From: Clostridium sp. AM49-4BH
GTDB taxonomy: Bacteria > Bacillota > Clostridia > Lachnospirales > Lachnospiraceae
Length of the DNA: 42,871 bases
NCBI RefSeq assembly: GCF_003478335.1
Contig: NZ_QUFB01000026.1
Coordinates: 1 to 42,871 of the forward strand
Reading direction: 5' to 3'
This document shows positions 1,685-40,990 of this stretch, in pieces. A model generated the notes under the pieces. It had not been told where the DNA came from and did not search any database. It saw only the letters and a program-made list of their open reading frames with translations. The translations under genes and the position numbers were made by a program. Each line of letters opens with the position of its first letter. The first letter of the stretch is position 1.

Positions 1685-2422
1685 ATGGTCGCTACAACTT
1701 ATTCGTATGACTTTTATTTGCGGGGGATATACTCTTCAAACCGTGGTGCACGCAAAGCAGAGCGTCGTTCATCCATGCAGAATAGTGAACTTACCAAGGC
1801 GGATTCCTCAGCTATGAAAAAGATCATTGAGCAATTGCGTCAGTTGGAGTGGAGTGAACCAACCGTAATGGAAGATAAAGATTCCAATTCGATGAATACG
1901 GTCAGCGATTCCACCAATTATAAATTTACAAAACTATTTGCAGATACTTATAATAATTTACTGGAAAGTGCAGGAAACTCGACTTCCGGCCAGGCAAAAC
2001 GTCTTATCTCACGGATGAAACACTTGACCAGAGAACAAAAAGACGCTTTAGAAAGCGTTGGTATCTCGATCAGTTCCAACGGCAAACTCAGTGTTAAGAA
2101 AGGCACTGTAAATCAGGCCGCAACTTATAAGTTCAAGCAATTATTCGGCAGTGACAGTGATTACCTGACAGAAATGTCTTCCATTGCAAAAAAGATAAAA
2201 AGACATGCAAGTCAGATCGTGATCCCGCCTAAAAAAGCCAAAGCGAGCACAAAACAGGATAGTACCAGTAATGCTGCCGATACTTCCTCTGTAGCGGCTA
2301 TTGCAGAAATCGCGGGCAGTGTTCACACTGCAGATCTCGCCGGCATTACTACAGGTACCGCAAATACTTCCGGCTCTGCATCCAATTCTCTCATTGGCAA
2401 TACCGTGGATGTGATTCTTTAA
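1685..2422 (+). CDS. FliD C-terminal-like protein, function unassigned
   Basis: 245 residues from ATG 1685 (an in-frame GTG at 1676 is possible but AAAGGA at 1669-1674 fits the ATG). The N-terminus MVATTYSYDFYLRG resembles the start of the larger FliD-like protein at 10588-11877 (LNVYNYLMTGY). The middle has YNNLLESAG, then LISRMKHL, then LESVGISISSNGKLSV, the layout of the C-terminal half of flagellar caps, in which YNxL is followed some 40 residues later by a GI...DGxL turn. The tail is Ser/Thr/Ala-rich. No signal peptide. A TATAAT at 1560-1565 lacks a good -35. The stop codon lies in a 39-bp duplication. Relation to FliD is inference from pattern, not alignment. Confidence 0.6.
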   Translation: MVATTYSYDFYLRGIYSSNRGARKAERRSSMQNSELTKADSSAMKKIIEQLRQLEWSEPTVMEDKDSNSMNTVSDSTNYKFTKLFADTYNNLLESAGNSTSGQAKRLISRMKHLTREQKDALESVGISISSNGKLSVKKGTVNQAATYKFKQLFGSDSDYLTEMSSIAKKIKRHASQIVIPPKKAKASTKQDSTSNAADTSSVAAIAEIAGSVHTADLAGITTGTANTSGSASNSLIGNTVDVIL

Positions 2423-2460
2423 TCGCTGCATATTGGCATTACCGCGGATGTGATTCTTTC
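2393..2460. repeat. 39-bp direct duplication across the stop codon of the FliD-like gene
   Basis: Copy 1 (2393-2431) encodes the last residues IGNTVDVIL and the stop. Copy 2 starts at 2432 and matches for 28 bp with two substitutions. Translated in the same register, copy 2 would read IGITADVIL. Confidence 0.75.
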
Positions 2461-2477
2461 CTTCCATGTGATACCAC

Positions 2478-2518
2478 AAAAGGCACCGCATAAACTTCCG
2501 TTTATGCAGTGCCTTTTT
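2478..2518. terminator. Bidirectional intrinsic terminator
   Basis: AAAAGGCAC.GCATAAAC, loop TTCC, GTTTATGC.GTGCCTTTTT. It ends the + strand gene at 1685-2422 and, from the other side, the rpmG-rplA operon whose last stop is at 2552. Confidence 0.85.
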
Positions 2519-2551
2519 ATTGGTTAAAACCGTATTACAATCCGTTAAAAA

Positions 2552-3244
2552 TTATACGTATTTAGCAGTGTTAAGCTTTACTCCAGGTCCCATTGTTGCG
2601 GACAAGGATACGCTTCTATAATACTGACCCTTAGCTGCTGCCGGTTTAGCCTTTGTGATAGCACCCATCAATGTCTCGACGTTCTCTACCAACTGCTCCT
2701 CAGAGAAGGAAACCTTTCCTACCGGTACATGTACGATATTAGCTTTATCCAAACGATACTCAATCTTACCAGCCTTGATATCCTGAACAGCCTTAGTCAC
2801 GTCCATCGTTACAGTTCCAGCCTTAGGGTTTGGCATCAGACCCTTAGGTCCGAGTACACGACCCAAACGACCAACAACGCCCATCATGTCCGGTGTAGCT
2901 ACAACTACATCAAACTCGAACCATCCATCGTTCTGGATCTTAGGGATCAACTCCTCGCCACCAGCGTAATCAGCGCCAGCTGCAAGAGCCTCATCTACCT
3001 TGTCACCCTTAGCAAATACCAGCACGCGAACAGTCTTACCTGTTCCGTGAGGAAGTACAACAGCACCACGGATCTGCTGATCTGCGTGACGTCCGTCTAC
3101 ACCCAATCTGATATGTGCTTCTACAGTCTCATCAAACTTTGCAACAGCTGTCTCTTTGATCACCTTTACAGCATCAGCAACTTCGTACTGTGCAGCTCTG
3201 TCAATCTTCTTAGCAGCCTCAACGTATTTCTTTCCTCTTTTCAT
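2552..3244 (-). CDS. rplA: Ribosomal protein uL1
   Basis: 230 residues from [16 protein letters not shown] at 3244-3242 is preceded by AGGAGG at a 9-nt distance, so the longer upstream reading is not used. Typical L1 features are GTGKTVRV, the [15 protein letters not shown] segment (part of the 23S and mRNA-binding surface) and YRLDKANI. It builds the L1 stalk of the large subunit and in many bacteria represses its own operon. Last gene of rpmG-secE-nusG-rplK-rplA; rplJ-rplL do not follow here, unlike in Bacillus. The 117-nt gap to rplK contains a small hairpin at about 3277-3297. Confidence 0.98.
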
Positions 3245-3361
3245 ATTATATAACCTCCTAGTGGTAGTAACGGCGGGTCCATGACACATCCCTTGTGTCG
3301 CCTCCCACATCGTTCAATCAACAACAATCTTTTTTATGCGATAATTCCGGCGTTCACTTAA

Positions 3362-3787
3362 TTATTCCTCTACAGTAACACCCATGCTGCGAGCTGTTCC
3401 TGCGATCATGCTCATTGCTGCCTCAAGAGAAGCTGCGTTCAGATCCGGCATCTTTGTCTCGGCAATCTCCTGAATTTTTGCTTTAGAGATTGTAGCAACT
3501 TTATTCTTGTTTGGCTCACCTGATGCATGCTCAATACCACATGCCTTCTTGATCAGCACTGCTGCTGGAGGAGTCTTTGTGATAAAGCTGAAGCTCTTAT
3601 CCTGATATACAGTGATAACTACAGGAATCAACATACCTTCCTGTCCAGCTGTTCTTGCATTAAACTCCTTTGTAAATGCTACAATGTTTACTCCGTGCTG
3701 ACCAAGTGCAGGACCAACCGGTGGTGCTGGTGTTGCCTTTGCAGCAGGAATCTGTAATTTAATATATCCTTCGACTTTCTTAGCCAT
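3362..3787 (-). CDS. rplK: Ribosomal protein uL11
   Basis: 141 residues, full family length. [20 protein letters not shown] and the Pro-rich [14 protein letters not shown] are the conserved N-terminal domain, and the C-terminal domain ends [13 protein letters not shown]. It binds the GTPase-associated centre of 23S rRNA and is needed for stringent activation of RelA-type enzymes. GGAGG lies 8 nt before the ATG at 3787. Confidence 0.98.
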
Positions 3788-5089: not shown

Positions 5090-6937
5090 TTATACTGCCT
5101 CTTCAAACTGTGAGTTATACAGATTTGCATAAAAACCATTCGCCGCCAACAAGGTATCATGGTCACCCTGCTCAATAATATCGCCATCTTTCATCACTAA
5201 GATAAGATCTGCATTGCGAATTGTTGATAAACGATGCGCGATCACAAAACTTGTGCGCCCCTTCATCAGATTGTCCATCGCCTTTTGGATCTCGATCTCC
5301 GTACGCGTATCAACCGAAGAGGTTGCCTCATCCAAAATAAGGATCTTATTATCCGCCAAGATTGCGCGTGCAATCGTAAGAAGCTGCTTTTGTCCTTGTG
5401 ACACATTGCTTGCATCTTCGTTGAGCTCCATCTGATATCCGCCCGGCAGTGTCTGAATGAAGTGATGTGCCCGCGCCGCTTTTGCCGCTGCAATGACCTC
5501 TTCATCCGTAGCATCCAAACGGCCATAGCGAATATTTTCCATGATCGTACCCTTAAACAGCCATGTATCCTGCAGCACCATTCCGAACGCATCTCGCAGA
5601 TCACGACGATTGAAATCGCGGATATCTCGGTCATTCAGCCGTATACTTCCCCGATCTACATCATAAAATCGCATTAGTAATTTCACCATCGTCGTCTTAC
5701 CGGCTCCGGTCGGACCAACGATCGCAATCTTCTGTCCCGGTTCTACATGTGCACTAAAATCATGAATGATCGGCTGCTCCGGCCGATACCCGAATCCTAC
5801 GTGGTCAAAGATAACCTCACCGGTTACTTTAGAAATATCTGCCGGCTGTTCTGCAAGCTGTATCTCCTCTTCTTCCTCCAAAAATTCAAATACACGTTCC
5901 GATGCCGCAGACATCGACTGCACCATATTAATAACCTGTGCAATCTGCTGAATCGGCTGCGTAAAGTTCTTGACATATTGGATAAATGCCTGAATATCAC
6001 CGATGGTAATCACGTTTTTGATGGCAAGCAGTCCACCGGTCAATGCAACGCACGCATAGCCCAGATTGCCGACAAACATCATGATCGGCTGCATCATACC
6101 TGACAAAAACTGTGATTTCCATGCCGAATTATACAAAATACGGTTTGTACGCTCAAATTCATCTATCGTTTCTTTTTCGTGGTTAAATGCTTTGACAACC
6201 AAATGCCCACCATATACTTCTTCTACCTGACCATTAATATGTCCCAGATATTCCTGCTGTGCGTGGAAATATTTTTGAGATTTTCTGGTTACCAATGCAA
6301 TCAATCCCATCGAGATCGGCAGTATGATCAAGGCGATCAATGTCATCAACGGTGAAATGCTCAACATCATGACCAGCACACCTATCAGCGTTGCAACGGA
6401 CGTAATAATCGTTGTAATACTTTGATTTAATCCCTGTCCAAGTGTATCCACATCATTTGTAATGCGCGACAGCACCTCGCCGTAAGTACGACTCTCAAAA
6501 TACTTCATTGGCATACGGTTAATCTTTTCGGAAATTTCCCGGCGCAGTCTGTAACAGACTTTCTGGGTGATCCCGGTCATGATCCATCCCTGCACAAAAC
6601 TAAACAACGCACTTGCCAAATACAGTGCCAGCACGATGAGCAGGATCAATCCGATTTTATGAAAATCTATGCTTCCGGTGCCTTGGATCTTTTTCATCAG
6701 CCCTTCCGAAAGTGCTGTCGTTGCTTTACCAAGTATTTTAGGACCTGCCACATTGAATATAGTAGAAAACGCTGCAAAGAGCATCACTACAAAAATACCG
6801 ATCTTATATTTTGCAATGTACTGCATCAACTTTTTGACGGATTTCTTCAGATCTTTTGGCTTTTCGCCCGGCTGCATACCGCGTCCCATCGGGCCTCTCC
6901 GCCGTGGTCTTTGTGTTAATTCTCGATTCTCACTCAT
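5090..6937 (-). CDS. ABC exporter subunit with intact catalytic glutamate (heterodimer partner 2)
   Basis: 615 residues: an Arg/Pro-rich cytoplasmic N-terminus, a six-helix type-I exporter membrane domain (about 35-330), then the nucleotide-binding domain with Walker A GPTGAGKTT near residue 409, signature SQGQ (not SGGQ) and Walker B ILILDEATS with the catalytic Glu, plus the switch His in AHRLST. Its ATG overlaps the stop of the upstream subunit (ATGAGTGA), so translation is coupled. The complementary defects of the two subunits match heterodimeric exporters such as BmrCD, LmrCD and TM287/288, which export drugs or other hydrophobic compounds. The substrate is unknown; MarR control suggests a toxic inducer. 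Confidence 0.92.
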   Translation of the reverse strand: MSENRELTQRPRRRGPMGRGMQPGEKPKDLKKSVKKLMQYIAKYKIGIFVVMLFAAFSTIFNVAGPKILGKATTALSEGLMKKIQGTGSIDFHKIGLILLIVLALYLASALFSFVQGWIMTGITQKVCYRLRREISEKINRMPMKYFESRTYGEVLSRITNDVDTLGQGLNQSITTIITSVATLIGVLVMMLSISPLMTLIALIILPISMGLIALVTRKSQKYFHAQQEYLGHINGQVEEVYGGHLVVKAFNHEKETIDEFERTNRILYNSAWKSQFLSGMMQPIMMFVGNLGYACVALTGGLLAIKNVITIGDIQAFIQYVKNFTQPIQQIAQVINMVQSMSAASERVFEFLEEEEEIQLAEQPADISKVTGEVIFDHVGFGYRPEQPIIHDFSAHVEPGQKIAIVGPTGAGKTTMVKLLMRFYDVDRGSIRLNDRDIRDFNRRDLRDAFGMVLQDTWLFKGTIMENIRYGRLDATDEEVIAAAKAARAHHFIQTLPGGYQMELNEDASNVSQGQKQLLTIARAILADNKILILDEATSSVDTRTEIEIQKAMDNLMKGRTSFVIAHRLSTIRNADLILVMKDGDIIEQGDHDTLLAANGFYANLYNSQFEEAV

Positions 6938-9343
6938 GCATTGTCACCTCGCTTTCTTCCATTCCAAGTTCGCTGGCAGACAACTGAGATTCTGCAATCT
7001 GTCGATACACCTCACAGTGTTCCAGCAATTCTTCATGTGTTCCCTTCCCTACAATTCGTCCTTCATCCAATACCAAAATCTGCTCTGCGTGCAGAATCGT
7101 ACTGATTCTCTGTGCTACAATAATTATGGTACTGTCTGTTACATTCTCGCTAAGTGCCCCTCGAAGCGCAGCATCCGTCTTGAGATCCAATGCCGAAAAA
7201 CTATCATCAAAAATACAGATCTTCGGATTCTTAGCGATTGCTCTTGCAATTGCCAATCTCTGTTTTTGTCCACCGGAAACATTCGAACCGCCCTGTGCGA
7301 TCGCACTGTCATAGCGATCTTCCTTGACATCAATAAACTCTGTTGCCTGCGCTATATCCGCTGCACGTTCGATTTCTTCCTCGGTGGCATCACCTTTACC
7401 AAAGCGCAAATTGGAGGCAATGGTTCCCGAAAATAAAATTCCTTTCTGTGGCACATAACCAATCTCCTCACGCAGATCCGACATCGCGATTCGACGGATA
7501 TCTTTGCCATCCAACGTGATTTTTCCATCGGTAACGTCATACAAACGTGGGATCAGATTCACTAATGTCGATTTGCCACAACCGGTGCTTCCGATAATTG
7601 CGGTTGTTTTGCCCGGTTCTGCGACAAAATCTATGTCATGAAGTACATCCTCTGTTGCGCCCGGATAACGGAAACATACGTGTTCAAAAGCAATGCGTCC
7701 GTTATGCGTTGTAAGTGTTTCCGGCTCATCGATATCAACAATTGAAGATTCTGTCTGAATGACCTCATCAATACGCTCTGCTGCAACAGCGGCACGCGGC
7801 AGCATGATCGACATCATTGTCAACATCAGGAATGACATCACGATCATCATCGCATACGTGATGAAAGCAGTCATTGCTCCTACCTGCATACTTCCCGCAT
7901 CAATCTTTTTGGCACCAAACCAAACAATGCCAACCGTCAAAACGTTCATGATCATCATCATACCCGGCATCATAAACGTCATCACACGATTCGTAAACAA
8001 CGTCGTTTTGGTGAGATCTTTGTTAGCTGCATCGAAACGCTCTTCCTCTGTGTCCTCCCGACCAAATGCGCGAATAACGGAAAGTCCTGTAAGGATCTCT
8101 CGAGAGACCAGATTGATTCGATCCACTAATTTTTGCATCAACTTAAATTTTGGCATGGCCGACGACATGAGTAACAGCACATAGCCGATGATAACGATGA
8201 TCGCAAGAACAATGATCCACCCCATTCCGGCACCTGTCTGTACCACTTTCAGAACACCACCAATGCCTAGTATCGGCGCATACGCAACCATCCTAAGAAG
8301 CATTACCGATACCATTTGAATCTGTTGAATATCATTCGTACTTCTCGTAATAAGGGAAGCCGTTGAGAAACGATCCATTTCTGCATTGGAAAATCCAACG
8401 ACTTTTTTGAACACATTTTCTCGCAGCGTCATACCAATTCCGGCAGCTACTTTGGAGGCAAAGAAACCAACTAGTACGGTAACAACTCCCATCAGCAATG
8501 CCATTCCAACCATTTTCAGGCCGGCATATACTAAGTATGTTTTTTGTATTTTATCCACATCGACGCCTGCCGCTTTGTCACAGGCAATCGCATAGGCAAT
8601 GCCTGTTGTCTTGACCAACGAACTGCCCATTGTGTCGATCGTGTTTTTCATGCTGTCTCTCGTAGAAAACAGCGTCTTTTCGTCGAGCATTCCGTTTTTT
8701 TGCATAGCGATAAATACCGGACGCACGTCGACACATTGTACCATTTTGGAATTTCCATCAGAGTCTTCTTTCTTTTGGCGGAAACGATGCAGTTTCACAC
8801 CCATAAATTTCTCGATCTGATCTACGCTAAGTCCGGACTGGTTCTTTGATGATCGTCCTACTTTTGCGCTATTGCCATTCTGGCTGCCGGCATCTTTGCC
8901 GCCTTGACTCGCTGCGTCATTCTGGCTGCCGTTATTTTTGCTTCCGGATGCCATCTGGCTCGCCACCATTTTTTCGAGGTTTTCTCCTCCATGGCGCTCA
9001 TTTGATAATTCATGATCAGCGGCAGCGCAAGCTGTTCGTCTAACTCCTCTAATCTGTCCTGCGACAAATTTTTCAACACCTTTGTGTCGCCTTTCTTCAC
9101 ATAAATATCATTCCAAATGCGCTTTTCCTGATCCGTCATGATAAACTGCGCAGTTTGAAATTCCTCTTCCTGAATCTTCTCCGGCATCACATGCTCGATG
9201 CCATGATTTTGGATTCCCACATCGATAATGTCCGACGTGTACGATGGAAGAGATAGGTCGCACCAAGCCTGCACAACCAACAGACCAATGATTGCGATCA
9301 CGATCTTCCAATACGGAATCATGTTTTTAAATATTTTACTCAT
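6930..9343 (-). CDS. ABC exporter subunit with degenerate site (heterodimer partner 1), frameshifted in this sequence
   Basis: The gene starts at ATG 9343 (MSKIFKNMIPYWK), overlaps the marR stop and would encode about 805 residues. One base is missing near 8969-8992: the first frame carries TM1 to MSAMEEK and the rest continues one frame away from ENLEKMVASQM. Between TM1 and TM2 lies an extracytoplasmic insert of roughly 200 residues, rich in Ser, Asn and Gln. The NBD has Walker A GSTGCGKST and an intact SGGQ signature, but Walker B reads IFDDSFS, with Asp in place of the catalytic Glu, as expected for the degenerate site of a heterodimer. An A6 tract at the junction could in principle allow slippage, but similar lesions elsewhere in the window make an assembly error more likely. 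Confidence 0.85.
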
Positions 9344-9803
9344 CGTCGTTTTCCTTTCTGTTCTTCCATTTTCTACAGGAAATTTCTTCCTGTGCTGCAA
9401 TATAAACATCATTCAGATAGCAAAGAAGACGTTCTCCTTCTTCTTGGTCAACCCGTTTGCCAACAGCATCCGAAAAATCCTTCATGATCTTTTCCGCCTG
9501 CTGCATTATCGCAATGCCCTCCTCTGTCATGACAACATAGGTATTGCGACGATCCTCCGGATTCACAACACGTTCCACATATCCTTTCTGCTCCAGTCCC
9601 CGCAGCGTCCGCGATATCGCCGAGGGCTTCACGCACGCTCTCTTGATCAATTCCGACACGGAAATCCGACGATCATCTTCTGCTTTCATTGCAAGCAGCA
9701 TCGTAAGATACTCCATTCGGCTGATTCCAGGCAGCATATCGCTAATATTCAGCTTACGAAACTGATTCATAATGCGGAACATTTTCTCATGATACTTTGT
9801 CAT
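9336..9803 (-). CDS. MarR-family transcriptional repressor of the exporter operon
   Basis: 155 residues from MTKYHEKMFRIM; the start at 9803 is preceded by GGAG, and a longer reading would run into the operator. The winged helix is clear: SVSELIKRACVKPSAISRTL is the helix-turn-helix and NPEDRRNTYVVMT the wing. Flanking helices form the dimer. First gene of marR-ABC-ABC, overlapping the next gene by 8 nt. The inverted repeats over its promoter suggest autorepression relieved by a ligand, typically a phenolic or drug-like exporter substrate. Confidence 0.93.
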   Translation of the reverse strand: MTKYHEKMFRIMNQFRKLNISDMLPGISRMEYLTMLLAMKAEDDRRISVSELIKRACVKPSAISRTLRGLEQKGYVERVVNPEDRRNTYVVMTEEGIAIMQQAEKIMKDFSDAVGKRVDQEEGERLLCYLNDVYIAAQEEISCRKWKNRKENDDE

Positions 9804-13353: not shown

Positions 13354-14205
13354 ATGGCACGTTTTACAAATCAGGCACAGCTTCGCTACGGTAATGCTGT
13401 GACCAATTCCAACGTTGCAGTTGGTGAAATTTTGGAAGTTTTATCTGCTACCAAGACCGCTGTAAAAACCACTTACGGACAAAATGACACTGTCACTTAT
13501 ATTATCAGCATTGTCAATTCCGGTGCAACAGCATTCAACGGACTTACTTTAACGGATGATCTTGGTGCTTACACATTTGGTACCGGTACAGTTACACCTC
13601 TTACCTATATTCCGGGAACCATAAATTATTATATCAATGGAACGCTTCAGACTGCTCCTACAGTTGAAGCCGGGCCGCCACTGACCGTATCCGGTATTAG
13701 CGTTCCTGCAAACGGCAATGCAACGATTATTTACGAAACAGCCGTAAATGAATTTGCGCCGTTTGCAACCGGTTCTGATGTTGTAAACACCGCAAGAATT
13801 ACCGGTGGCGGCATTACACCGATCACGATCTCCGAAACGATCGCTGCGGAAAGCACGCCTATCCTTAACATTACCAAATCTGTCAGCCCGGTCCCTGTTA
13901 CCGAAAACGGCATTTTAACTTACACTTTCCTGATCCAGAATATGGGAAGTGCACCTGCTGCCGTCACAACAGGTGCCACGATCACGGATACGTTCAATCC
14001 GATCTTATCCGGTCTGACCGTAACCTTCAACGGAACTGCATGGACTGCGCCGACTAATTACACGTACAACGAAACAACCGGTTTGTTTGCCACTGCCGCT
14101 GGTCAGATTACGGTACCTGCTGCCACCTTTACGCAGGATCCGGAAACGGGGGCTTGGGTTACAACACCCGGCGTTAGCACATTAGTTGTCACAGGCACGA
14201 TCTAG
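13354..14205 (+). CDS. DUF11 repeat-domain protein
   Basis: 283 residues, nearly all Thr/Asn/Gly-rich beta-strand sequence. It has two DUF11 modules: the first about 25-150 (VGEILEVLSATKTAVKTTYGQNDTVTY, NTARITGGG), the second about 165-283 (ILNITKSVSPVPVTENGILTYTF). The N-terminus MARFTNQAQLRYGN recurs in Firmicute DUF11 proteins without a signal peptide. There is no LPXTG motif or membrane anchor. Such modules build stalks of surface proteins; how this one reaches the outside is not evident. GGAGG is at 13344-13348. Its last codons and stop lie in a 42-bp triplicate. Confidence 0.8.
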   Translation: MARFTNQAQLRYGNAVTNSNVAVGEILEVLSATKTAVKTTYGQNDTVTYIISIVNSGATAFNGLTLTDDLGAYTFGTGTVTPLTYIPGTINYYINGTLQTAPTVEAGPPLTVSGISVPANGNATIIYETAVNEFAPFATGSDVVNTARITGGGITPITISETIAAESTPILNITKSVSPVPVTENGILTYTFLIQNMGSAPAAVTTGATITDTFNPILSGLTVTFNGTAWTAPTNYTYNETTGLFATAAGQITVPAATFTQDPETGAWVTTPGVSTLVVTGTI

Positions 14206-14319
14206 CGATAGCCTTCAAGCTTTTGATGTACTTCCGGCACGATCTAACAATAGCATTCAAACCCTTGATGTGCTTCCGGCACGATCTAACAATAGCATTC
14301 AAACTCTTGATGTGCTTCC
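14194..14319. repeat. 42-bp tandem repeat x3 across the stop codon of the DUF11 gene
   Basis: Copies at 14194-14235, 14236-14277 and 14278-14319. Each begins GGCACGATCTA: in the gene this reads Gly-Thr-Ile-stop, and the later copies keep the Gly-Thr-Ile-stop register (TAG in copy 1, TAA in the others). Copies 2 and 3 differ at one base. Confidence 0.9.
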
Positions 14320-16189: not shown

Positions 16190-16392
16190 TTTTTCACTTT
16201 CTAACTGTCACTTACCGTGCAAAGCTCCTGCTTTATCACCGTCTACTCGTTACTCGGCTTTTCACTTTCCAACTGTCACTTACTGTGCAAAGCTCCTGCC
16301 TTATCACCGTCTACTCGTCACTCGGCTTTTCACTTTCCAACTGTCACTTACCGTGCAAAGCTCCTGCCTTATCACCGTCTACTCGTTACTCA
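16190..16392. repeat. 68-bp tandem repeat x3 across the stop codon of the membrane protein gene
   Basis: The landmark GTGCAAAG recurs at 16217, 16285 and 16353, exactly 68 bp apart. The last copy carries the final Glu codon and stop (16386-16388) of the gene. The upstream coding end TGGAAAGTGAAA matches the repeat interior, with about 9 extra nt in the gene. It fills the gap to the C39-like peptidase gene. Confidence 0.9.
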
Positions 16393-18751: not shown

Positions 18752-18903
18752 ACTTTATACTCATCCTCACTTTAATCACTATTCATCACTCTGCGCCAAG
18801 ACAGCCAAAAAGCAAGGCAATCCCGTTATCTCCATGCACAGAGAGAAACTCCGTTTCATATAAATATCAGAATACCGTAGTTTCATTTCTTTGTCAAACA
18901 GCT

Positions 18904-19008
18904 TGCCAAACCGGCTCTTTCCATTCTTAGGCACACAACTTGTCAGACCGGCTCTTTCCATTCTTTGGCACACAACCTGCCAGACCGGCTCTTCCCATTC
19001 TTTGGCAA
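18904..19008. repeat. 37-bp tandem repeat x3 beyond the GH31 terminator
   Basis: CCGGCTCTT recurs at 18911, 18948 and 18985, period 37. Unlike the other arrays it contains no codons of a gene: it starts directly after the terminator of the alpha-xylosidase gene. It accounts for most of the 335-bp gap at 18752-19086. Confidence 0.85.
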
Positions 19009-21661: not shown

Positions 21662-21740
21662 AAAAAAAAGCAAAGCCAGCGCTATGCAAGAATTGCTAAA
21701 GCAATTCTTGGTGATGTCACGCTGCATAACAGCATTTTCC
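21662..21740. repeat. Terminator-adjacent hairpin repeat, copy 2
   Basis: Contains GCAAAGC-CAGC-GCTATGC (one mismatch), CAAGAATTGC-TAAA-GCAATTCTTG (perfect) and the flank GCATAACAGCATTTTCC. It lies 8 nt beyond the terminator of the 21856-23673 gene in the minus-strand direction and ends in T8 on that strand. Confidence 0.85.
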
Positions 21741-23905: not shown

Positions 23906-23990
23906 CAAAAGCAAAGCCAGCGCTTTGCTTTACAAGAATTGCTAAAGCAATTCTTGATAACATTACTCCACACAACAGCAATCTCCGATA
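23906..23990. repeat. Terminator-adjacent hairpin repeat, copy 3
   Basis: AAAGCAAAGC-CAGC-GCTTTGCTTT and CAAGAATTGC-TAAA-GCAATTCTTG, both perfect stems, then the flank ACACAACAGCA. It is a direct tandem with copy 4, about 91 bp apart. Confidence 0.9.
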
Positions 23991-23995
23991 AAGGA

Positions 23996-24083
23996 ACAAA
24001 AAGCAAAGCCGGCGCTTTGCTTTGCAAGAATTGCTAAAGCAATTCTTGATTGCATTACTCCACACAACAGCAATTTTCGATAA
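23996..24083. repeat. Terminator-adjacent hairpin repeat, copy 4
   Basis: Same two hairpins, here with loop CGGC/GCCG in the first. Minus-strand reading GCAAAGC-GCCG-GCTTTGC-TTTTT is itself an intrinsic-terminator shape. It starts about 16 nt beyond the terminator of the 24196-26955 gene. Confidence 0.9.
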
Positions 24084-24098
24084 AGTATTTCCGATAAT

Positions 24099-24195: not shown

Positions 24196-26955
24196 TTATT
24201 TGAATTTCTTGTAACCGCTCTTCTTTAACTTCTTAACATTAGCCTTAGTTACTTTCTTAGAAGCGCCCTTAACCTTGATTGTCTTCTTGCATCCCTTGAA
24301 TGCTTTCTTAGCAACCTTTGTTAATTTAGCTTTTACCTTCAAAGTAGATAACTTCTTGCAGTTAGCAAATGCTCCTGCAGGAATGGACTTAATGTTCTTG
24401 CCAAGAGTGATTGTCTTAGCATTAGCGCCCTTGAATGCGTTCTTGCCAATACTTGTTACTTTATAGCTGTAGCCATTGATCTTAGCTGTAGCTGGTGCAG
24501 AGAGGCTAGATGCCTTCTTGCCTGCCTTAGAAAGACCAACGATTGCTAATGTACCAGCTTTCTTAGCTGTAGCTGCTTTTGTTACCTTGTAAACAACCTT
24601 GCCGCTCTCAACCTTATTACCCTTCTTAGGTGCCTTTGGTGCCTTAGTAGGTGCCTTAGTAGGTGCCTTAGTAGGTGCCGGGCTGTTTGTAGGAGCCGGT
24701 GTTACGTTTGGCTTCTCACTTGGTTTAACAGTTGGCTGTTCACTCGGTGTAGGAAGAGCACCCTCAGACGCATCAATATCGTCCTTTGTGATAGTATCGT
24801 TCTTTACATTCTCACCTGTCTCAGGATCTTTATAAGTACCTTCCTTAAGGTCGTTCAATGCAGCCTTAAGTCCTGTAACCTTAAATGTAATCTCAATGCT
24901 GTTCTCTGGAACTGCCAAATCTTCAGCATCTGTCTTTTCAAACAAAGGTCCCTTATCATCAGGATTCCACTTGTTGATCAGTGGATAGTAGTAATACAAC
25001 TCATCTGCTTTCTGAACAAGGCTCAGATCTTTAGCAACTTCAGCACCATCAACCTTCAGAGATGTAACAGATAACTTAACATCTGCATATGCACCATCTG
25101 GGTTTTCTTCTGTCTTAGCAGAAAGGTCTGTTGCGATAGACAACAAGTTGTACTTCGTAGCTGATGACAAATCGATACCGCTAATAGCTACTGTATACTC
25201 ACCATCTCTTGTAAGTAATACATCAGTAGCCTTGAATTCTGCAGCGTTACCGCTTGCCTTGATGTAATCGTAAGTATCCTGTTTTCCAACAGCATTTGGC
25301 TTGTAACCATTACGATAATCCCATGAATCCATCTGATATGCGAGATAAGCATGGATACCCTTTGTAGCCCAAAGAGCCTCATCATAAGCCTTAGGAGCGT
25401 CTGTTGGCTCTGGAGTAGGTGTTACTTCTGGTCCTTCTGTATCATCTGCGAATTTCAATTCTGTTGTCTTCATAGTTACATCAGAAATTGTTAAACCAGC
25501 TGTTACGTTCTTGTCATCATCTTTCTCTAATGCAGAATCGATGTCAGCGAACATTACACCTAACTGATTTCCAAGAGTAATTTCTCCTGCTGCAGTATAA
25601 GATACTGTATATGTTCCGTCTTTTTCGATTTCAACAACACCAGCTGATGGTACTGTGTTACCTAATGTATTTACAGACCAGTCACTTGAGTTTACACCGA
25701 TGAATGCCTTGATAGACTTAGCGCCTGTCTTTGCTAATACATCTGCAACGCCTGCTGCCTTGAAAGAAATAGAGATGTCTCTAAGTGTCTGACCTTCCAT
25801 TTTATTTGGATCAAACTTGCCCCAGTTGTTGAACACAAGAAGTCTTGCTTCTCCACTGTCGCCACCTATGAATTTGCTTTCTGTAGCACCATCGAATTTT
25901 GCAACGCTCTTAACTTCCTTTGCTACCTCAACTTTGAGGGATGCATCAGATACTGTTAAACCTGCTGTTACATTCTTATCATCGTCTTTCTCTAATGCAG
26001 AATTGATGTCAGCAAACATTACACCCATCTGGTTTCCTAACTTAACTGTTGAAGAACCAGTATATGTTACTGTGTATGTTCCATCTTTCTCAATCTCTGT
26101 TACTCCGTTTGCAGGAACTGTGTTTCCAAGAGTATTTACAGACCAGTCGCTTGAATTCAATCCAAGGAATGCCTTGATAGACTTAGCGCCTGTCTTTGCC
26201 AATACATCTGCAACACCTGCAACCTTGAAAGTAATAGACGCATTCTTTACATCAATACCTTCAAGCTCACTCGGGTCATACTTACCCCAGTTGTTAAACA
26301 CTAACAAACGAGCTTCTTCGGAATCTCCGCCTATTAACTTAGATTCTACCGCTTTATCGAAAGATGTAACATCTTTCATTAAAGCAGGAGCTTTAATCTG
26401 AAGCTTTGTATCAGAAACTTTCAAACCTGCTGTTACATTCTTGTCATCATCTTTCTCTAAAGCAGAGTCGATGTCAGCAAACATTACACCCATCTGGTTT
26501 CCAAGTGTAATTGTTGAGGAACCAGTATATGTTACTGTATAGGTTCCATCTTTCTCAATTTCTGTTACTCCATCTGCAGGTGCAGTGTTACCAAGAGTAT
26601 TCACTGACCAATCACTTGAATTCAATCCAAGGAATGCTTTAATAGACTTAGCTCCTGTCTTCGCCAACACATCAGCCACACCTTCAACATTAAAAGTAAT
26701 AGATGCATCTTTCATGCTGATTCCTTCAAGTTCACTAGGATCATACTTGTCCCAGTTGTTAAATACTAACAAACGAGCTTCTCCAGAATCTCCGCCTACT
26801 AACTTAGATTCAACTGCCTTATCAAATACAACCTTGTCCACAGTAGATACCGCAGCATCTGCTTTTTCAGAAACAAGGCCGACGCTAGGAATAAGACTTA
26901 ACGCCATTGCACCGGCAAGAACCCATGACAAAACTTTTTTTGTCTGTTTTCTCAT
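24196..26955 (-). CDS. Secreted protein with a triplicated module and C-terminal leucine-rich repeats
   Basis: 919 residues from ATG 26955 (GGAGGAG upstream). Signal peptide VLSWVLAGAMALSLIPSVGLV. Three near-identical modules of about 155 residues follow (roughly 39-193, 194-350, 351-510). Each opens like FDKAVESKLIGGDSGEARLL and contains FNNWGKYDPSELEG and FLGLNSSDWSVNTLGN, a compact aromatic-rich beta fold that resembles carbohydrate-binding modules. Module 4 (about 526-715) matches module 2 of the protein at 21856. A Pro/Thr/Lys linker with repeated APTK precedes the Lys-rich LRR_5 array ending SGYKKFK. It is probably surface-bound and polysaccharide-binding; ligand unknown. Modules 1-3 were made by recent internal duplication. 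Confidence 0.78.
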   Translation of the reverse strand: MRKQTKKVLSWVLAGAMALSLIPSVGLVSEKADAAVSTVDKVVFDKAVESKLVGGDSGEARLLVFNNWDKYDPSELEGISMKDASITFNVEGVADVLAKTGAKSIKAFLGLNSSDWSVNTLGNTAPADGVTEIEKDGTYTVTYTGSSTITLGNQMGVMFADIDSALEKDDDKNVTAGLKVSDTKLQIKAPALMKDVTSFDKAVESKLIGGDSEEARLLVFNNWGKYDPSELEGIDVKNASITFKVAGVADVLAKTGAKSIKAFLGLNSSDWSVNTLGNTVPANGVTEIEKDGTYTVTYTGSSTVKLGNQMGVMFADINSALEKDDDKNVTAGLTVSDASLKVEVAKEVKSVAKFDGATESKFIGGDSGEARLLVFNNWGKFDPNKMEGQTLRDISISFKAAGVADVLAKTGAKSIKAFIGVNSSDWSVNTLGNTVPSAGVVEIEKDGTYTVSYTAAGEITLGNQLGVMFADIDSALEKDDDKNVTAGLTISDVTMKTTELKFADDTEGPEVTPTPEPTDAPKAYDEALWATKGIHAYLAYQMDSWDYRNGYKPNAVGKQDTYDYIKASGNAAEFKATDVLLTRDGEYTVAISGIDLSSATKYNLLSIATDLSAKTEENPDGAYADVKLSVTSLKVDGAEVAKDLSLVQKADELYYYYPLINKWNPDDKGPLFEKTDAEDLAVPENSIEITFKVTGLKAALNDLKEGTYKDPETGENVKNDTITKDDIDASEGALPTPSEQPTVKPSEKPNVTPAPTNSPAPTKAPTKAPTKAPKAPKKGNKVESGKVVYKVTKAATAKKAGTLAIVGLSKAGKKASSLSAPATAKINGYSYKVTSIGKNAFKGANAKTITLGKNIKSIPAGAFANCKKLSTLKVKAKLTKVAKKAFKGCKKTIKVKGASKKVTKANVKKLKKSGYKKFK

Positions 26956-27392
26956 TATTTCTCCTCCTCTTTTTATTATTGAGTCATCGTACATAATTGA
27001 AATGCTGTACGTAAGTTTTGAACTTAAGAACTACGAAACAAAAACTCATATTTCAATCAAAACGTACCATAGCCTTTCATTTATATACATAAAAATTTAC
27101 AAAACATATTCTAACACGATACGGTAAAAAAATCAATCATTTTTACCTGTTTTTCAAAAAATCTATTGCCGATTTTGTTAAATATACACAAATTTATTTC
27201 TTAATCCTGTCTATGTCGATGATTTTTACCGTAAATATACACAATACGACAGACCTGCCATGCAGGCATTATCCAGAACTTTCCTGCCACAAATACTTGT
27301 TTCGTATTTCCATTATGGCAAAAAAGCGGAAAGAATAAATTTATTTATATCTTGTTATAATACCTTTCAAAAACTTGAAAGTGAGGCTTTTT
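26956..27392. other. AT-rich intergenic region with promoter and repeated box
   Basis: 437 bp without a gene. Besides the promoter at 27108-27136 it has an imperfect palindrome GGTAAAAA...TTTTTACC overlapping that -35 (27122-27148), and the box AAATATACACAA occurs twice (near 27180 and 27232). These could be regulator sites. Confidence 0.4.
27108..27136 (-). promoter_or_regulatory. Promoter of the triplicated-module protein gene
   Basis: TTGATT (27136-27131), 17-bp spacer, TAGAAT (27113-27108), leader about 150 nt. The overlapping GGTAAAAA/TTTTTACC palindrome may be an operator. Confidence 0.6.
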
Positions 27393-27857
27393 ATGACAAA
27401 GCAAAAATGTAATTCTAATAACCCAAATAGCAATTTAGACAAAAGAACCCTAACGCTAAACGAATGGTATTCTTTTGGGATACAGAATTATAAAAACGGC
27501 GTTGTCAAACCATCGACAATCCAAAATTATTGCTGCATCTACAATAATCATATCAAAAAATTTTTAGGTTATATGCCGCTTTGCGAAATTCGCACAATGC
27601 ATATTCAACAAATGCTCAATTCACTGGGACTATCATCCAAGTACCAGCATCGCATCCATGCCATACTCTCGAATATGTTTGAAATCGCGGTTCAAGATGA
27701 TTTGATCGTGAAAAATCCATGTTGCCATACTTATTTTCTTCCCTTTTGTATGACAGCGATGCAATTTATCGAATTTCGATCAGCTTATTTCAACTTCGTC
27801 TCCGAATGGTATCATATTGAATACTTGTCAACTCAATCCACCATTATCTATAACTGA
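27393..27857 (+). pseudogene. Truncated tyrosine recombinase (integrase N-terminal part)
   Basis: 154 residues from ATG 27393, after GTGAGG. It contains the N-terminal core-binding (SAM-like) region: TLNEWYSFGIQNYKNGVVKPSTIQNY, HIKKFLG, IRTMHIQQMLNSL, ILSNMFEIAVQDDLIVKNPC. After the NPC motif, where the catalytic domain should begin, the sequence turns into unrelated residues and stops; the R...HxxR...Y residues are absent and I do not find them in the other frames. It is an integrase remnant, one of few + strand genes here, directly followed by a long repeat array. It suggests that a mobile element once entered this region. Confidence 0.75.
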
Positions 27858-27869: not shown

Positions 27870-28224
27870 TTGACTGCTTTAGCGCTTTCGCTGATTTCAG
27901 CTTGCTTTTTGCTTCTTTGGTTGACTACTTTGGGGACTTTTTCTATTTCAGCTTGCCTATTGGGCTATTTCGGTTGACTGCTTTAGCGCTTTCGCTGATT
28001 TCAGCTTGCCTATTGGGCTATTTCGGTTGACTGCTTTGGCGTTTTCGCTGATTCTAGCTTGCCTATCGTGCTTCTTTGGTTGACTGCTTTGGCGCTTTCG
28101 CTGATTTCAGCTTGCTTTTTGCTTCTTTGGTTGACTGCTTTGGGACTTTCGCTGATTCCGGCTTGCTTATTGGCTTCTTTGGTTGACTGCTTTGGCGCTT
28201 TCGCTGATTCCAGCTTGTTTCTCC
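27870..28224. repeat. 51-54 bp degenerate tandem repeat, seven copies
   Basis: TTGACT(G/A)CTTT starts copies at 27870, 27921, 27973, 28027, 28080, 28131 and 28183. Units also share CTTTCGCTGATT.CAGCTTG. There are no unique spacers, so it is not CRISPR. The 689-bp gap 27858-28546 consists of this array, hairpin repeat copy 5 and a terminator. Confidence 0.9.
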
Positions 28225-28245
28225 CCCTCTACATTAACTGTTACT

Positions 28246-28320
28246 AGGGCTTTGCTTTGTAAGAATTGCTAAAGCAGTTCTTGATAACATCACACTGCAT
28301 AACAGCATTTTCTTATTCCA
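28246..28320. repeat. Terminator-adjacent hairpin repeat, copy 5
   Basis: The left hairpin is truncated (GGGCTTTGCTTT); AAGAATTGC-TAAA-GCAGTTCTT is intact with one changed pair (A to G, giving a G-T pair). The flank GCATAACAGCATTTTC is conserved. It lies about 95 nt beyond the GH5 gene terminator. Confidence 0.75.
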
Positions 28321-33954: not shown

Positions 33955-34178
33955 GTTATTTCTATTACAACATTTTCCTTGGATTCAAGTTTCTCATGTC
34001 TCAATTGCAACATTTCCCTTGGATTCAAGTTTCTCATGTCTCTATTACAGCATTTCCCTTGGATTCAAGTTTCTCATGTCTCAATTGCAGCATTTCTCTT
34101 GAATTCAAGTTCTTCGTCTCACCACTTCAACATTTCCCTTAGATTCAAGTTCCTCAGATCATCACCATTGCAGCATTT
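33955..34178. repeat. 40-bp tandem repeat, about five copies, across the stop codon of the CE2 gene
   Basis: GATTCAAGT recurs with period 40 (33981, 34021, 34061, 34101, 34141). The terminal codons of the esterase, Glu-Met-Leu-Gln-Trp-stop, form the right edge, and the nearest copy still reads Glu-Met-Leu-Lys-Trp-stop in the same register; farther copies are degenerate. Confidence 0.9.
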
Positions 34179-35253
34179 CCTTAGCAGCATCTGCAATTAA
34201 ACGGGCACACTTACGGTTCGTCTTTTCCGTCGGATGCCAATAAGTTCCCAAGCCATCTACCTCATCCTGCAATGGAAGCTGTACATAACGAATCGTACAA
34301 TCTGGCGTAACTTTGGCAAAACATGCTGTCGCAGCATCAATCGTCGTATTCAATCTTTGATCCATCGCTCCGATCGTTGTTATAATAGCTGCATTCGGAT
34401 TATGCTCGTGCACCTGATGCAACAATTTTACATAAGCATCTTCAAACTGTTTCTGTCTGTCTGGAATATCTCTTGTATAGCTCGCATCATTCGTACCTAA
34501 ATAAATGACAACAAGCTGCGGTTTATATTCCTCAAAATTCCAAGTTTCCCAGTCTGACTTCTCATTGGCAAAATAATCTCGTTCCAGTCCTGCATCCGTG
34601 TATTCATATAACATTGGCATCAGCCAGGAATCATCAATCTGTGCATCCTCTTCTTCCCCTATATATGCTGTGATAACACCTTTTCCGTTCCACGATACCA
34701 GGTTAGGTTCCGCATCAAGCAATTCTGCGGTAAGTAATGAATACGATTTGGTCGGATTTTCATCTGCGGTGTCAAATATTTCATCACTCACATCACCTTC
34801 CACGCCGTAACCGCAAGTGATCGAATCGCCAAAAAACTCGATCTGTCTTTTCTTATGTACCGGCGGCGATAATAGTATTTCTTCCCCCGGGTTTACTTCA
34901 TCGGTAATTTCTATAGAAACAATACCACACGCTGCATATTCTGCTTCAGAATATTTAACGATAGTAATCTGCTTTTCCGTAGTTTGTTGCGTTTCAAACA
35001 GCACGATTGTCTGCCTGTCCTGCTCTAAGCGCAGACGCTTAGCAGGATCTCTATCCTGTCCATAATAAATAGCAATCCAAGCCCTCTCCTTCTCAGTATG
35101 CTTTGATGCGTCACTGACAATCTCTGCGGTTGCTTTTGTTCCTACGAATTTGAAAGAAATAGATGTCGCAGAATATCCCAGATAACGAATACCCTCTCGA
35201 TAAATAGTTCTACCCGTTACACTAACATGCTTCTTATCTGCCTGAAATTTCAT
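34162..35253 (-). CDS. CE2-type SGNH carbohydrate esterase
   Basis: 363 residues from MKFQADKKHV (GGAGG before the ATG at 35253). N-terminal beta-sandwich (about 1-125; GYSATSISFKFVGTKATAEIVSD), then an SGNH domain with the nucleophile Ser in FGDSITCGYG near 144, block GTNDA near 253 and the His in YWHPTEKTN near 340. The two-domain order is that of family CE2, acetylxylan and related 6-O-deacetylases. No signal peptide, so intracellular trimming of acetylated oligosaccharides is likely. It follows glmS by 83 nt with no strong terminator, so it may be co-transcribed. Confidence 0.85.
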   Translation of the reverse strand: MKFQADKKHVSVTGRTIYREGIRYLGYSATSISFKFVGTKATAEIVSDASKHTEKERAWIAIYYGQDRDPAKRLRLEQDRQTIVLFETQQTTEKQITIVKYSEAEYAACGIVSIEITDEVNPGEEILLSPPVHKKRQIEFFGDSITCGYGVEGDVSDEIFDTADENPTKSYSLLTAELLDAEPNLVSWNGKGVITAYIGEEEDAQIDDSWLMPMLYEYTDAGLERDYFANEKSDWETWNFEEYKPQLVVIYLGTNDASYTRDIPDRQKQFEDAYVKLLHQVHEHNPNAAIITTIGAMDQRLNTTIDAATACFAKVTPDCTIRYVQLPLQDEVDGLGTYWHPTEKTNRKCARLIADAAKEMLQW

Positions 35254-35336
35254 TCTTTCGCCTCCATAAATACACATTTTTCTTACTCATGACCGGCAAT
35301 ATACAATATTGCTTTCATAATTTCATTTTTACCGGA

Positions 35337-38814: not shown

Positions 38815-38900
38815 CTAAAAAGAGCAAAACCAGCGTTTTGCTCTGCAAGAATTGCTAACGCAATTCTTGGTGGCTTCCCTCTAGGTTACGAGCATTTTCC
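38815..38900. repeat. Terminator-adjacent hairpin repeat, copy 6
   Basis: GAGCAAAAC-CAGC-GTTTTGCTC: relative to copies 3 and 4 both arms changed together (AAAGC/GCTTT to AAAAC/GTTTT). CAAGAATTGC-TAAC-GCAATTCTTG is perfect, and the flank GAGCATTTTCC is conserved. It begins 8 nt beyond the tRNA-Thr terminator. Confidence 0.9.
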
Positions 38901-38942: not shown

Positions 38943-38951
38943 CCTCAACAG

Positions 38952-39024: not shown

Positions 39025-39250
39025 ACTCAACAATCCATATTATATAATAGCGCCTCTAAATTTGCAAGCAAATTTTTCATTTTCTCTGTTTTATAAGCCC
39101 CATTTATACGTTTTCTATCGTGTCCCCGAACACTGAAGTGAAAAGCTTATTTCCACCTTAAAGAGCAAAGCAGATTAATTTCCTTCTCTTTTATCTTCAG
39201 CAGCTCTATTGCAGTATTTCATGCAGCTTTTGGATGAGAAGAAGGCGTCA

Positions 39251-39868
39251 TCACCTTAGTATCGTCCGTAATTTAGTCTTGATCCGCTGCAATGCGTTGT
39301 CTATTGCTTTCGGTTGCTTTTGCATATATCTGGCAATCTCCTGATAAGTCATACCACGCAAAAACAACGATAGAACTTCTCGTTCCATTCCACTCAAAAC
39401 ACTAAATAAGCGTTCCTCTATATCACCGGCTTCTTCTCTGTCAATAATAATGTCCTCTGGATTTTGATACAGACCTGCCGACACGCGATCCAACAGCTTG
39501 ACGCTGTCCGGTCCCTGTTCATTATCGCTATCACTGGCTGAATCAATTGAAATATAAGTATTAAGGGGCCCGTTTTTTTTACGATTGGACTTTTTGACTG
39601 CAGAATACATCTGCCGATTAATGCAATGACTGGCAAATGTCTCAAATGCAGCGCCTCTACATTCATCATAGCTTACGACTGCCTTGTACAGGCCAATCAT
39701 CCCTTCCTGTATTAAATCGTCCTCATCGCCATCCAATAAAAACAATGTTCGCGAAAGCCCTCTAACGAGTCCTTTATATTTAGCCAATACATACTCCATA
39801 GCCTCATCATTACCATGTTTTGCACTGGCAACCACTTCCTCTATTGTCTGCTGTTCATACTCTCTCAT
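39251..39868 (-). CDS. sigH: SigH-type RNA polymerase sigma factor
   Basis: 205 residues from MREYEQQTIEE at 39868; an upstream in-frame ATG at 39919 is possible but lacks an SD and runs into a repeat. Region 2 (LVRGLSRTLFLLDGDEDDLIQEGMIGLYKAV) and region 4 (GMTYQEIARYMQKQPKAIDNALQRIKTKL) match Spo0H, the ECF-like sigma-70 for early sporulation, competence and transition-phase genes. The linker IDSASDSDNEQGPDSV is more acidic than in Bacillus. Its position after rlmB (without yacP) is the ancestral order. Whether the host sporulates cannot be told from here. Confidence 0.93.
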   Translation of the reverse strand: MREYEQQTIEEVVASAKHGNDEAMEYVLAKYKGLVRGLSRTLFLLDGDEDDLIQEGMIGLYKAVVSYDECRGAAFETFASHCINRQMYSAVKKSNRKKNGPLNTYISIDSASDSDNEQGPDSVKLLDRVSAGLYQNPEDIIIDREEAGDIEERLFSVLSGMEREVLSLFLRGMTYQEIARYMQKQPKAIDNALQRIKTKLRTILR

Positions 39869-39924
39869 ACTACACCCCGTACTTACCTCACATTCACCCA
39901 ATACGATTTGCTTCTGCAAATGTG

Positions 39925-40068
39925 CCTACTTTATACCCTTAACATACCCCTGGCTATAACACACTTACTTCTATATTCTTAGCGTTCCTCTGGCTATAAC
40001 GCGCTTACTTTATGCCATTAATGTACCTCTGGCTATAACGCGCTTATTTTATGCCCTTTGTGATCCGC
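39925..40068. repeat. 39-40 bp tandem repeat, 3.7 copies, across the stop codon of rlmB
   Basis: TGGCTATAAC recurs at 39951, 39991 and 40030. On the minus strand each unit repeats the gene end AGGGCATAAAATAAGCGCG with the stop codon; the copies are less alike the farther they are from the gene. Confidence 0.9.
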
Positions 40069-40795
40069 TGGCGCACGATTTCATATGATAAAATTCCCAT
40101 CGCTACCGAAGCGTTTAATGAATCAATATCACCCTGCATCGGAATGGATGCCGTAAAGTCGCAGTTTTCTTTCACTAATCTGCTGACACCATCGCCTTCG
40201 TTACCGATCACAACACCGATCGGTCCGGTCAGATCAAGCGAATACATCGTCTCTCCTGACATATCTCCACAAACAAACCACATCCCCTGTTTCTTGAGTT
40301 CTTCCATGGTTTTGACCAGATTCGTTACCTTTGCCACCGGAGTATAATGAATCGCTCCTGCAGATGCCTTTGCCACAGTGCAGTTAAACCAACAGCTCGT
40401 CGCTTAGGAATGATGACACCATGTGCACCTGCCTGGTTAGCCGTACGAATAATAGACCCCAAATTGTGTGGGTCTTCTATTCCATCCAATAAAATAACGA
40501 ACGGTGCTTCCCCCTTCTGTGCCGCACGATCCATAATTTCTTCTACTGTGCTATACTCATAAGCCGCCAAATGTGCAATAACTCCTTGATGCTTACCTGT
40601 CTCTGATAATTGATCCAAGCGTTCTTTCTTGACGAAATTGACAATGGTACTCTGCTTTTTCGCTTCACGCAAAACTGTTTGAATAGGACCATCCTTGCAG
40701 CCTTCTAAAACAAATATCTTATCAACGGTTTTCCCTGCACGAAATGCCTCAATTACTGCATTACGTCCTTCTATTGTTAATTCTTCGTATGCCAT
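40044..40795 (-). CDS. rlmB: 23S rRNA 2'-O-methyltransferase RlmB (SpoU family), frameshifted in this sequence
   Basis: The start MAYEELTIEGRNAVIEAF is at 40795. The N-terminal frame reads through LLDGIEDPHNLGSIIRTANQ (SPOUT motif 1) to RRAVGLTA, then loses frame; the next frame continues TVAKASAGAIHYTPVAKV, then IGVVIGNEGDGVSRL (motif 2) and IPMQGDIDSLNASVAMGIL (motif 3). GCACTG where GCAACTG is expected (near 40378) marks one missing base, and the joined product is about 250 residues, normal for RlmB. It methylates a guanosine near the peptidyl transferase centre (G2251 in E. coli). The order mrnC-rlmB-sigH is as in Bacillus. Confidence 0.9.
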
Positions 40796-40860
40796 ATGTG
40801 TCTTCCTTCCTATATAATTTAACAATTTACACTACCGTACCAAACAATTTAATTCACTTC

Positions 40861-40990
40861 GATCATGCGAGTACATTATTTGTTGAGCATCTGATCTGTT
40901 TCGATCATGCGAGTACATTATTTGTGAGGCATCTGATCTGCTTCGATCATGCGAGTTCATTATTTGTGAGGCATCTGATCTGCTTCGATC
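40861..40990. repeat. 42-bp tandem repeat x3 across the stop codon of mrnC
   Basis: GATCATGCGAG recurs at 40861, 40903 and 40945, and GATCAG at 40987, all exactly 42 bp apart. On the minus strand each unit repeats the codons for IEADQMPHK and the stop. The copy next to the gene is nearly identical to it. Confidence 0.95.

Follow-up and report, generated by a model that had tools for sequence, protein, structure and literature searches.

By analogy, the closest precedent for the arrays described here comes from archaeal Borg elements. Their tandem repeats are extrachromosomal, are intergenic or have their first unit within a gene end, and are described as having locus-unique, error-free identical units with a strong A bias, periods divisible by three in open reading frames (ORFs), and partial-repeat flanks (PMC9879509). 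Bacterial minisatellites or VNTRs, including the MIRU-VNTR loci of M. tuberculosis, resemble the present arrays in their 40–100 bp units, short intergenic arrays and lineage-specific occurrence; however, MIRUs are repetitive sequences at 41 scattered places (PMC2734929), whereas the units of the six stop-codon arrays reported below are unrelated between loci. De novo tandem repeats of a beta-lactamase are similarly short local duplications, part of them flanked by direct repeats and attributed to slippage, the rest not, although they are coding, laboratory-selected and confined to a single gene (PMC4169377).

The window analysed here is a stretch of 42,871 nucleotides from Clostridium sp. AM49-4BH. 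It contains bacterial housekeeping genes (ribosomal proteins, mrnC, rlmB) and four tRNAs, with best relatives in the Lachnospiraceae; some of its genes appear frame-broken. An initial annotation had listed six arrays comprising the last codons of a gene, its stop codon and some 3′ flank, and Tandem Repeats Finder (TRF), for five of them, and a direct-repeat scan, for the one at 2393–2460, place all six at or near the same positions (Table 1). The direct-repeat scan returned 0 matches in a 275-kb Markov control built from 15 stretches of a related genome (G023), and chance is therefore an unlikely source of the six arrays. Identity among copies of the window arrays is 0.66–0.98. The annotation had missed three further non-genic arrays, none of which lies on a stop; one of them is made up of a dispersed element. 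The non-genic tally of the window is thus six of nine arrays on stops and none of nine on starts, the former fraction being biased, as the window was chosen for this pattern. This tally leaves aside the three in-frame coding arrays as well as eight TRF rows of short length or low score (47–85).

Table 1 Tandem arrays of the window; coding overlaps include the stop codon.
Feature	Position	Strand	Copies	Detection	Coding overlap	Context
R-S-R direct repeat, 28 bp recurring at lag 39	2393–2460	+	1.74	Direct-repeat scan; absent from TRF rows	Last 30 bp	Gene 1676–2422
42-bp array	14194–14319	+	3.0	TRF	Last 12 bp	DUF11-domain gene 13354–14205
68-bp array	16191–16391	-	3.0	TRF	6 bp (last codon and stop)	Gene 16386–17276
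40-bp array	33961–34180	-	~5.5	TRF core	Last 19 bp	CE2/GDSL esterase gene 34162–35277
39-bp array	39927–40072	-	~3.5	TRF	Last 18 bp	SpoU/RlmB-type methylase ORF 40044–40376; this ORF overlaps ORF 40325–40825 in a different frame
42-bp array	40857–40991	-	3.2	TRF	Last 32 bp	Mini-RNase III (mrnC) gene 40960–41409
37-bp array	18887–19007	.	3.3	TRF		Intergenic, off any stop
92-bp array of dispersed double-hairpin element	23907–24085	.	1.95	TRF		Intergenic, off any stop
53-bp array	27870–28270	.	6.7 (at 27870–28217)			Begins 13 bp past the stop of truncated integrase ORF 27375–27857
42-bp in-frame coding array	1–204	-		TRF		In ORF open at window edge
30-bp in-frame coding array	17511–17611	-		TRF		Within ORF 17045–18751
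In-frame coding array	25479–26823			TRF		

Comparison with syntenic relatives, made as presence or absence of arrays in one genome per species, indicates the direction of growth at three comparable gene ends. In G001, the nearest relative of the window, and in G002, the C-terminal ends of mrnC, RlmB and the esterase are conserved and have no array behind them, including at the homologous esterase gene end. Because the relatives are single-copy at these conserved gene ends, the arrays at the three loci grew from the gene outward. Arrays are present at other places on the syntenic G001 contig (L177), and the syntenic G002 contig (L120) has none. The earlier statement that gene-proximal copies are the most gene-like holds at mrnC (identity of 0.98, then 0.88) and rlmB (0.87, then 0.69) but fails at the genes ending at 14205 and 34162, where the outer copies are closer to one another than to the gene copy.

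The placement of arrays was examined in 842 kb sampled from G023, which belongs to the same genus as G001 and whose mini-RNase III is 62% identical to that of the window. Genes were called with our own simple caller (654 genes, 85% coding) and five stringencies were checked. The count (n = 130) was obtained after removing 8 of 138 arrays, namely those at most 5 bp from a stretch end, any in stretch L139, which holds the CRISPR array, and four of a dispersed family; the array statistics assume independent arrays. Stops are overlapped by 32 arrays and starts by 3 (binomial P = 4 × 10⁻⁷), against approximately 1:1 under random placement, although the ratio falls to 28:10 with the laxest gene calls. 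Since the other relatives pooled (G001, G014, other members of the genus and 68 further loci) give 10:0, plus one array over both, the pattern is not limited to one lineage. The proposed enrichment of arrays at stops over starts thus withstands the test that the initial annotation had set for itself. Beyond the 32 arrays on stops, 48 are purely intergenic and 45 are intragenic and in frame. The period of intragenic arrays is divisible by three in 45 of 45 kept arrays (46 of 46 before removal, and between 46 of 47 and 46 of 48 under less stringent gene calling), whereas extragenic periods are evenly phased (29, 34 and 29 for remainders of 0, 1 and 2). Array density is highest in convergent regions (1.77 per kb, 15 arrays), followed by co-directional (0.78, 56) and divergent regions (0.56, 12; convergent versus divergent P = 0.004), and in co-directional gaps the upstream stop is closer than the next start for 39 of 56 arrays (Wilcoxon P = 0.053). 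Retention of the codon register, noted for some of the window arrays, looks incidental: four of the six window periods are multiples of three, but among 36 G023 stop arrays the remainder is 1 in 16, 2 in 13 and 0 in only 7.

These arrays are likely to be independently born minisatellites, arising from a high rate of de novo tandem duplication, in the species of the window and also in one or more species of the sampled genus (that of G023), and filtered by purifying selection. In array-rich species, stretches of 35–100 bp would often be tandemly duplicated de novo and would then expand via slippage or unequal exchange. The sites of duplication may be arbitrary, the survivors being mostly the harmless ones: intergenic, in-frame intragenic or stop-crossing. 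A direct duplication across a stop would keep the gene intact, stop included, within the first copy, and the additional copies would come to lie in the 3′ flank, whereas one across a start would alter the promoter, ribosome-binding site or N-terminus; among gene boundaries, arrays would therefore survive at stops, which are probably favoured mainly as the sole boundary that a duplication crosses harmlessly. The observed basis for this explanation is the outward growth at three loci, the asymmetry between stops and starts, the frame rule and the density gradient, from which uniform duplication with selection is inferred as the main cause. The asymmetry itself would follow from the purging of duplications that cross a start or break the frame. 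Machinery targeting stop codons, which the initial annotation had considered, is unnecessary: the overlap of G023 arrays with the gene ranges from 0 to 1 period, and 48 of the 80 stop-or-intergenic arrays lie off stops. Contrary to a selective filter are the 12 arrays in divergent, promoter-bearing gaps, the ratio at the laxest gene calls, the gathering of array edges near stops described below and an excess at stops over random sites. This excess is 1.6-fold, with 32 of 80 arrays (0.40) overlapping stops in G023 against 0.25 expected from random placement on an array-collapsed map (P = 0.003; expected fraction 0.23–0.30 and P = 0.001–0.013 across the five gene-calling settings). As it remains, boundary selection alone does not account for everything, and the residue may stem from biased mutation or from the coding copy surviving better.

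A mutational hot spot at gene 3′ ends, where termination, R-loops or replication–transcription encounters would raise breaks and template switching in addition to selection, is possible but unlikely. It would fit the residual excess, the highest density being in convergent regions, and the gathering of gene-side array edges at −20 to +5 of the stop (22 of 55 against approximately 10 expected; P = 0.017 by Kolmogorov–Smirnov test, and 0.004, with an identical start-distance filter on observed and simulated sides). However, the gene overlap is broad and lacks a fixed register, and an excess can also arise where purifying selection maintains the coding copy and thereby keeps the array recognisable. 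Terminators were detected in a crude scan for 12 of 38 G023 stop arrays (none for the other 26), 8 beyond the array, 3 straddling its end and 1 inside. The usual position between stop and terminator, where the latter was detected, would suit a selected 3′-UTR function in which repeats stabilise or regulate mRNA, yet such a function is very improbable: units are unrelated, syntenic relatives do not share the arrays, and the mean fold z-score of 35 units resembles that of 60 array-free 3′ ends (−0.49 versus −0.28, P = 0.22), which leaves the suggestion of a structured 3′ UTR unsupported. The same terminator positions count against repeated capture of mRNA 3′ ends by reverse transcription, also suggested earlier; position alone speaks for it, arrays mostly end before the detected terminators, and similar arrays that are purely intergenic or in-frame intragenic are as common as those on stops, so its likelihood is only the slightest. 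As for an assembly artefact, the frame-broken look of some window genes means that base quality may be imperfect, but substitutions distinguish the copies and independent assemblies of other species show the same pattern, leaving it almost no chance.

The geometry of the repeats bears on how they are born. The six stop-array units of the window show no cross-match at E ≤ 1, and 112 of 154 non-genic G023 repeat structures are singletons (of the rest, one CRISPR array accounts for 23, one dispersed family for 10 and small clusters for 9), in agreement with the earlier view that the units are unrelated and reflect a process rather than a transposed element. Many G023 structures are R-S-R repeats of unrelated sequence, with R of approximately 31–42 bp, S of approximately 28–36 bp and a lag of 64–70; the R pairs of 59 R-S-R structures in G023 have a median identity of 0.96. 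Copy-number fractions of 92 G023 arrays fill all ten bins without departing from uniformity (chi-square P = 0.43). Simulated simple tandem duplications differ, 285 of 290 lying between −0.1 and +0.2 of the true integer; the birth event is thus often other than plain slippage, a point against the favoured explanation. Copy numbers are whole in some window arrays (3.0, 2.96). Several candidate sources were rejected. Higher-order repeats do not explain the 68-bp spacing, as dimers of a half unit make up just 4 of 59 units. Nor are the partial flanks explained by ordinary tandem copies having decayed, for which gapped extension gave signs in 13 of the 38 structures tested (46 selected, 8 skipped with S under 8 bp) and none in the other 25. 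A 61-bp spacing that G014 seemed to share was set aside, two G014 rows resembling a CRISPR repeat. Loss of a repair gene, examined for SbcD, MutS and Ku, was also discarded: G023 and G001 both have SbcD and MutS, and a search of array-poor G002 gave no SbcD. The MutS of G023 is split into two pieces on separate contigs, and Ku is present in just 1 of 28 genomes.

A CRISPR consists of one repeat with different spacers. Many G023 structures share its R-S-R geometry, but here the repeat changes between loci and S is nearly identical across the copies of an array. Off-target Cas1–Cas2-like integration (R to R-S-R) as the birth of half-unit arrays in G023 has a very slight chance of being correct. 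The recurrent R-S-R of unrelated sequence, many with R and S near 34 bp, would accord with it; against it, the CRISPR of G023 itself is 36 + 30, yet many R-S-R lags are 68–70, and Cas1 occurs in G002, G003 and G020, all array-poor in the sampled stretches, and was not found in the G001 assembly. Moreover, 20 S sequences compared with the rest of the 842 kb gave weak matches alone (43, best E of 0.004), and at mrnC, with its conserved C-terminus, the unit is native. A Borg-like repeat-forming process on the chromosome of a few Lachnospiraceae, with a preferred spacing (approximately 68 bp in G023, perhaps approximately 40 bp in the window species), R-S-R births with R and S roughly equal, and a preference for stop-codon surroundings beyond selection, is a doubtful alternative. 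The likeness to Borg repeats extends to locus-unique units, intragenic periods divisible by three, placement between genes or with the opening unit inside a gene end, and partial-repeat flanks, to which the spread of copy-number fractions corresponds (PMC9879509). The present arrays differ in being on a bacterial chromosome and in having imperfect copies, both in the window and in G023 R pairs. A strong A bias is not clearly visible in G023, where sense-strand arrays have an A content of 0.332 versus 0.319 in array-free 3′ ends, and a T content of 0.196 versus 0.252. The stop-over-start asymmetry is quantified here, whereas the Borg paper, where it describes the arrays, notes those at gene ends without a start comparison (PMC9879509). 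No report of such an asymmetry in bacteria was found among the listed titles and abstract openings of the open-access literature, with most subscription papers outside this scope.

With frequent duplication and a selective filter as the likely explanation, some Lachnospiraceae carry many small, independently arisen arrays that often start in the final codons of a gene. Ordinary bacterial chromosomes thereby offer a counterpart to the puzzling tandem repeats of Borgs, their unexplained partial-repeat flanks included, and the ratio of 32 stops to 3 starts provides a quantified, testable rule. For annotators, gene ends that recur together with a stop codon do not necessarily imply duplicated genes or a stop-recognising element.

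The window is a piece of Lachnospiraceae chromosome that encodes four tRNAs, and its mini-RNase III shares 83% identity with the MAG copy of one near relative (L001, genome G001) and 78% with that of a second (L002, genome G002). Pfam matches apart, its genes were named by the look of their translations, which we take to be ribosomal proteins, NusG, GlmS, RlmB and a SigH-like factor. The reiteration of gene ends with their stop codons at six genes, as claimed in the initial annotation, was confirmed by Tandem Repeats Finder, which detected five of the six arrays, and by a direct-repeat scan, which detected the sixth; each array includes the final 6–32 bp of its gene, stop included. The units have no match to one another, bearing out the claim that their sequences are unrelated. 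Six of nine non-genic arrays in the window, which was selected for this pattern, lie on a stop and none on a start (random share 0.20, p = 0.003). Separately, three genes are seemingly split into overlapping frames and appear to be pseudogenes or base-level errors, and a gene with a BspA-type LRR_5 match contains a 465-bp unit in 2.9 copies.

Relatives were compared with the window at three gene ends. The window esterase ends in AAKEMLQW-stop and its counterparts in AAKELMNW-stop (G001) and AAKEMMGW-stop (G002); the C-termini of mini-RNase III and RlmB match the relatives' ends to within a few residues. Arrays 3′ of these three genes are absent from G001 and G002. Because the C-termini agree, the gene ends are ancestral, and the array copies were added later, growing outward. 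The syntenic G001 stretch has an array at the stop of another gene.

The window observation generalises to relatives. G023, a genome in the genus of G001, is rich in arrays, with 138 of period 25–200 in 842 kb. After drops, 130 arrays comprise 45 intragenic, 48 intergenic, 32 on a stop, three on a start and two on both. With units placed at random on the array-collapsed map of G023, expected starts approximately equal expected stops; the stop share among stop-or-intergenic arrays is 0.40, versus 0.25 at random. Both excesses keep their direction at five gene-calling stringencies (28:10 stop:start at the laxest). Pooled elsewhere (G001, the further relative G014, other genus members and 68 further loci; ~2.4 Mb), ten arrays lie on stops, none on starts and one on both, alongside 29 intergenic and 55 intragenic arrays. 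Stops are favoured over starts beyond the window as well.

The signature of selection in these arrays is clear. Since all 45 retained intragenic arrays of G023 are in frame, frame-breaking intragenic duplications seem to be purged. Array density is highest in convergent intergenic DNA, which should contain fewer promoters (1.77 per kb), and lowest in divergent intergenic DNA (0.56 per kb, still 12 arrays; p = 0.004), and the unit portion inside the gene ranges anywhere from 0 to 1 period. The frame rule, orientation gradient and broad overlap are predictions of random duplication plus selection, so that the dedicated stop-targeting mechanism initially contemplated is not required: duplications would arise at random and then be sieved by selection, with the first copy of a duplication over a stop retaining the whole gene. 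Array edges near the stop go beyond this prediction alone, with 22 of 55 at −20 to +5 where ~10 are expected (Kolmogorov–Smirnov p = 0.017). Either mutation is higher at the gene 3′ end, or selection preserves the coding copy, leaving arrays recognisable for longer; there is room for a modest bias towards gene 3′ ends.

The mrnC (mini-RNase III) array of the window is a clean case: its unit is native and closes with 9 bp that directly repeat its opening, which is what plain slippage would give. Copy numbers in G023 are seldom whole, their fractions being evenly spread (p = 0.43 for uniform), unlike simulated simple duplications, 285 of 290 of which fall near whole copy numbers. When a single CRISPR array and a single dispersed family are set aside, G023 has 59 structures of fewer than two copies in which a direct repeat R flanks a segment S; the R-to-R lag is 65–74 bp in 26 of them, and in some R and S are each ~34 bp, without gapped extension. 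At lags of 64–70 bp, such ~34-bp R and S recur in unrelated sequences, a preferred spacing. The paper on Borgs, archaeal elements, describes similar partial-repeat flanks in their repeats and considers it a mystery where the middle part comes from (PMC9879509).

High array density is sporadic, since non-genic arrays per 100 kb range from 0.9 to 19: 19 in the window (8 in 42.9 kb, two coding arrays left out), 10.9 in G023 (92 in 842 kb, before drops), 3.3 in G014 (11 in 337 kb), 2.9 in G001 (8 in 275 kb, three with the 91–95 bp spacing of a dispersed element), 1.3 in the 68 further loci (15 in 1,161 kb) and 0.9 in other genus members (6 in 638 kb). Presence of SbcD/MutS or absence of Ku does not explain high density. 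The dispersed element, common to the window species and G001, is a terminator-like double hairpin with core AAGAATTGC..GCAATTCTT, often adjoining a GCAAA..TTTGC hairpin and sometimes tandem at ~91–95 bp spacing. G023 has its own dispersed, terminator-like family (10 of 154 repeat structures) and a long CRISPR array (36-bp repeat, ~30-bp spacers) with a Cas1 match on the same contig. Two identical 75-bp copies at 200-bp lag in G014 resemble duplicated tRNA genes.

Positions of arrays, dispersed elements and other features
Feature	Genome	Position
Stop array	G001	L177 9855-9945
Double-hairpin element	window	21666-21710, 23907-24085, 28249-28290, 38823-38869
Double-hairpin element	G001	L165, L170, L177, L217, L221, L231
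GGCACC..GGTGCC hairpin family	G023	L105, L107, L130, L148, L149, L155 and others
Split RlmB-type methylase gene	window	40044-40825
Split membrane protein gene	window	16386-18751
Split ABC transporter gene	window	6930-9412
465-bp units	window	25479-26823 (gene 24196-26994)
CRISPR array	G023	L139 from 8626 on (contig 9)
Cas1 match	G023	contig 9, 26612-27295
75-bp copies	G014	L251 6071-6345

The window arrays are a bacterial, chromosomal instance of dense independent minisatellites, a kind already known, to which Borg repeats are the closest known system.
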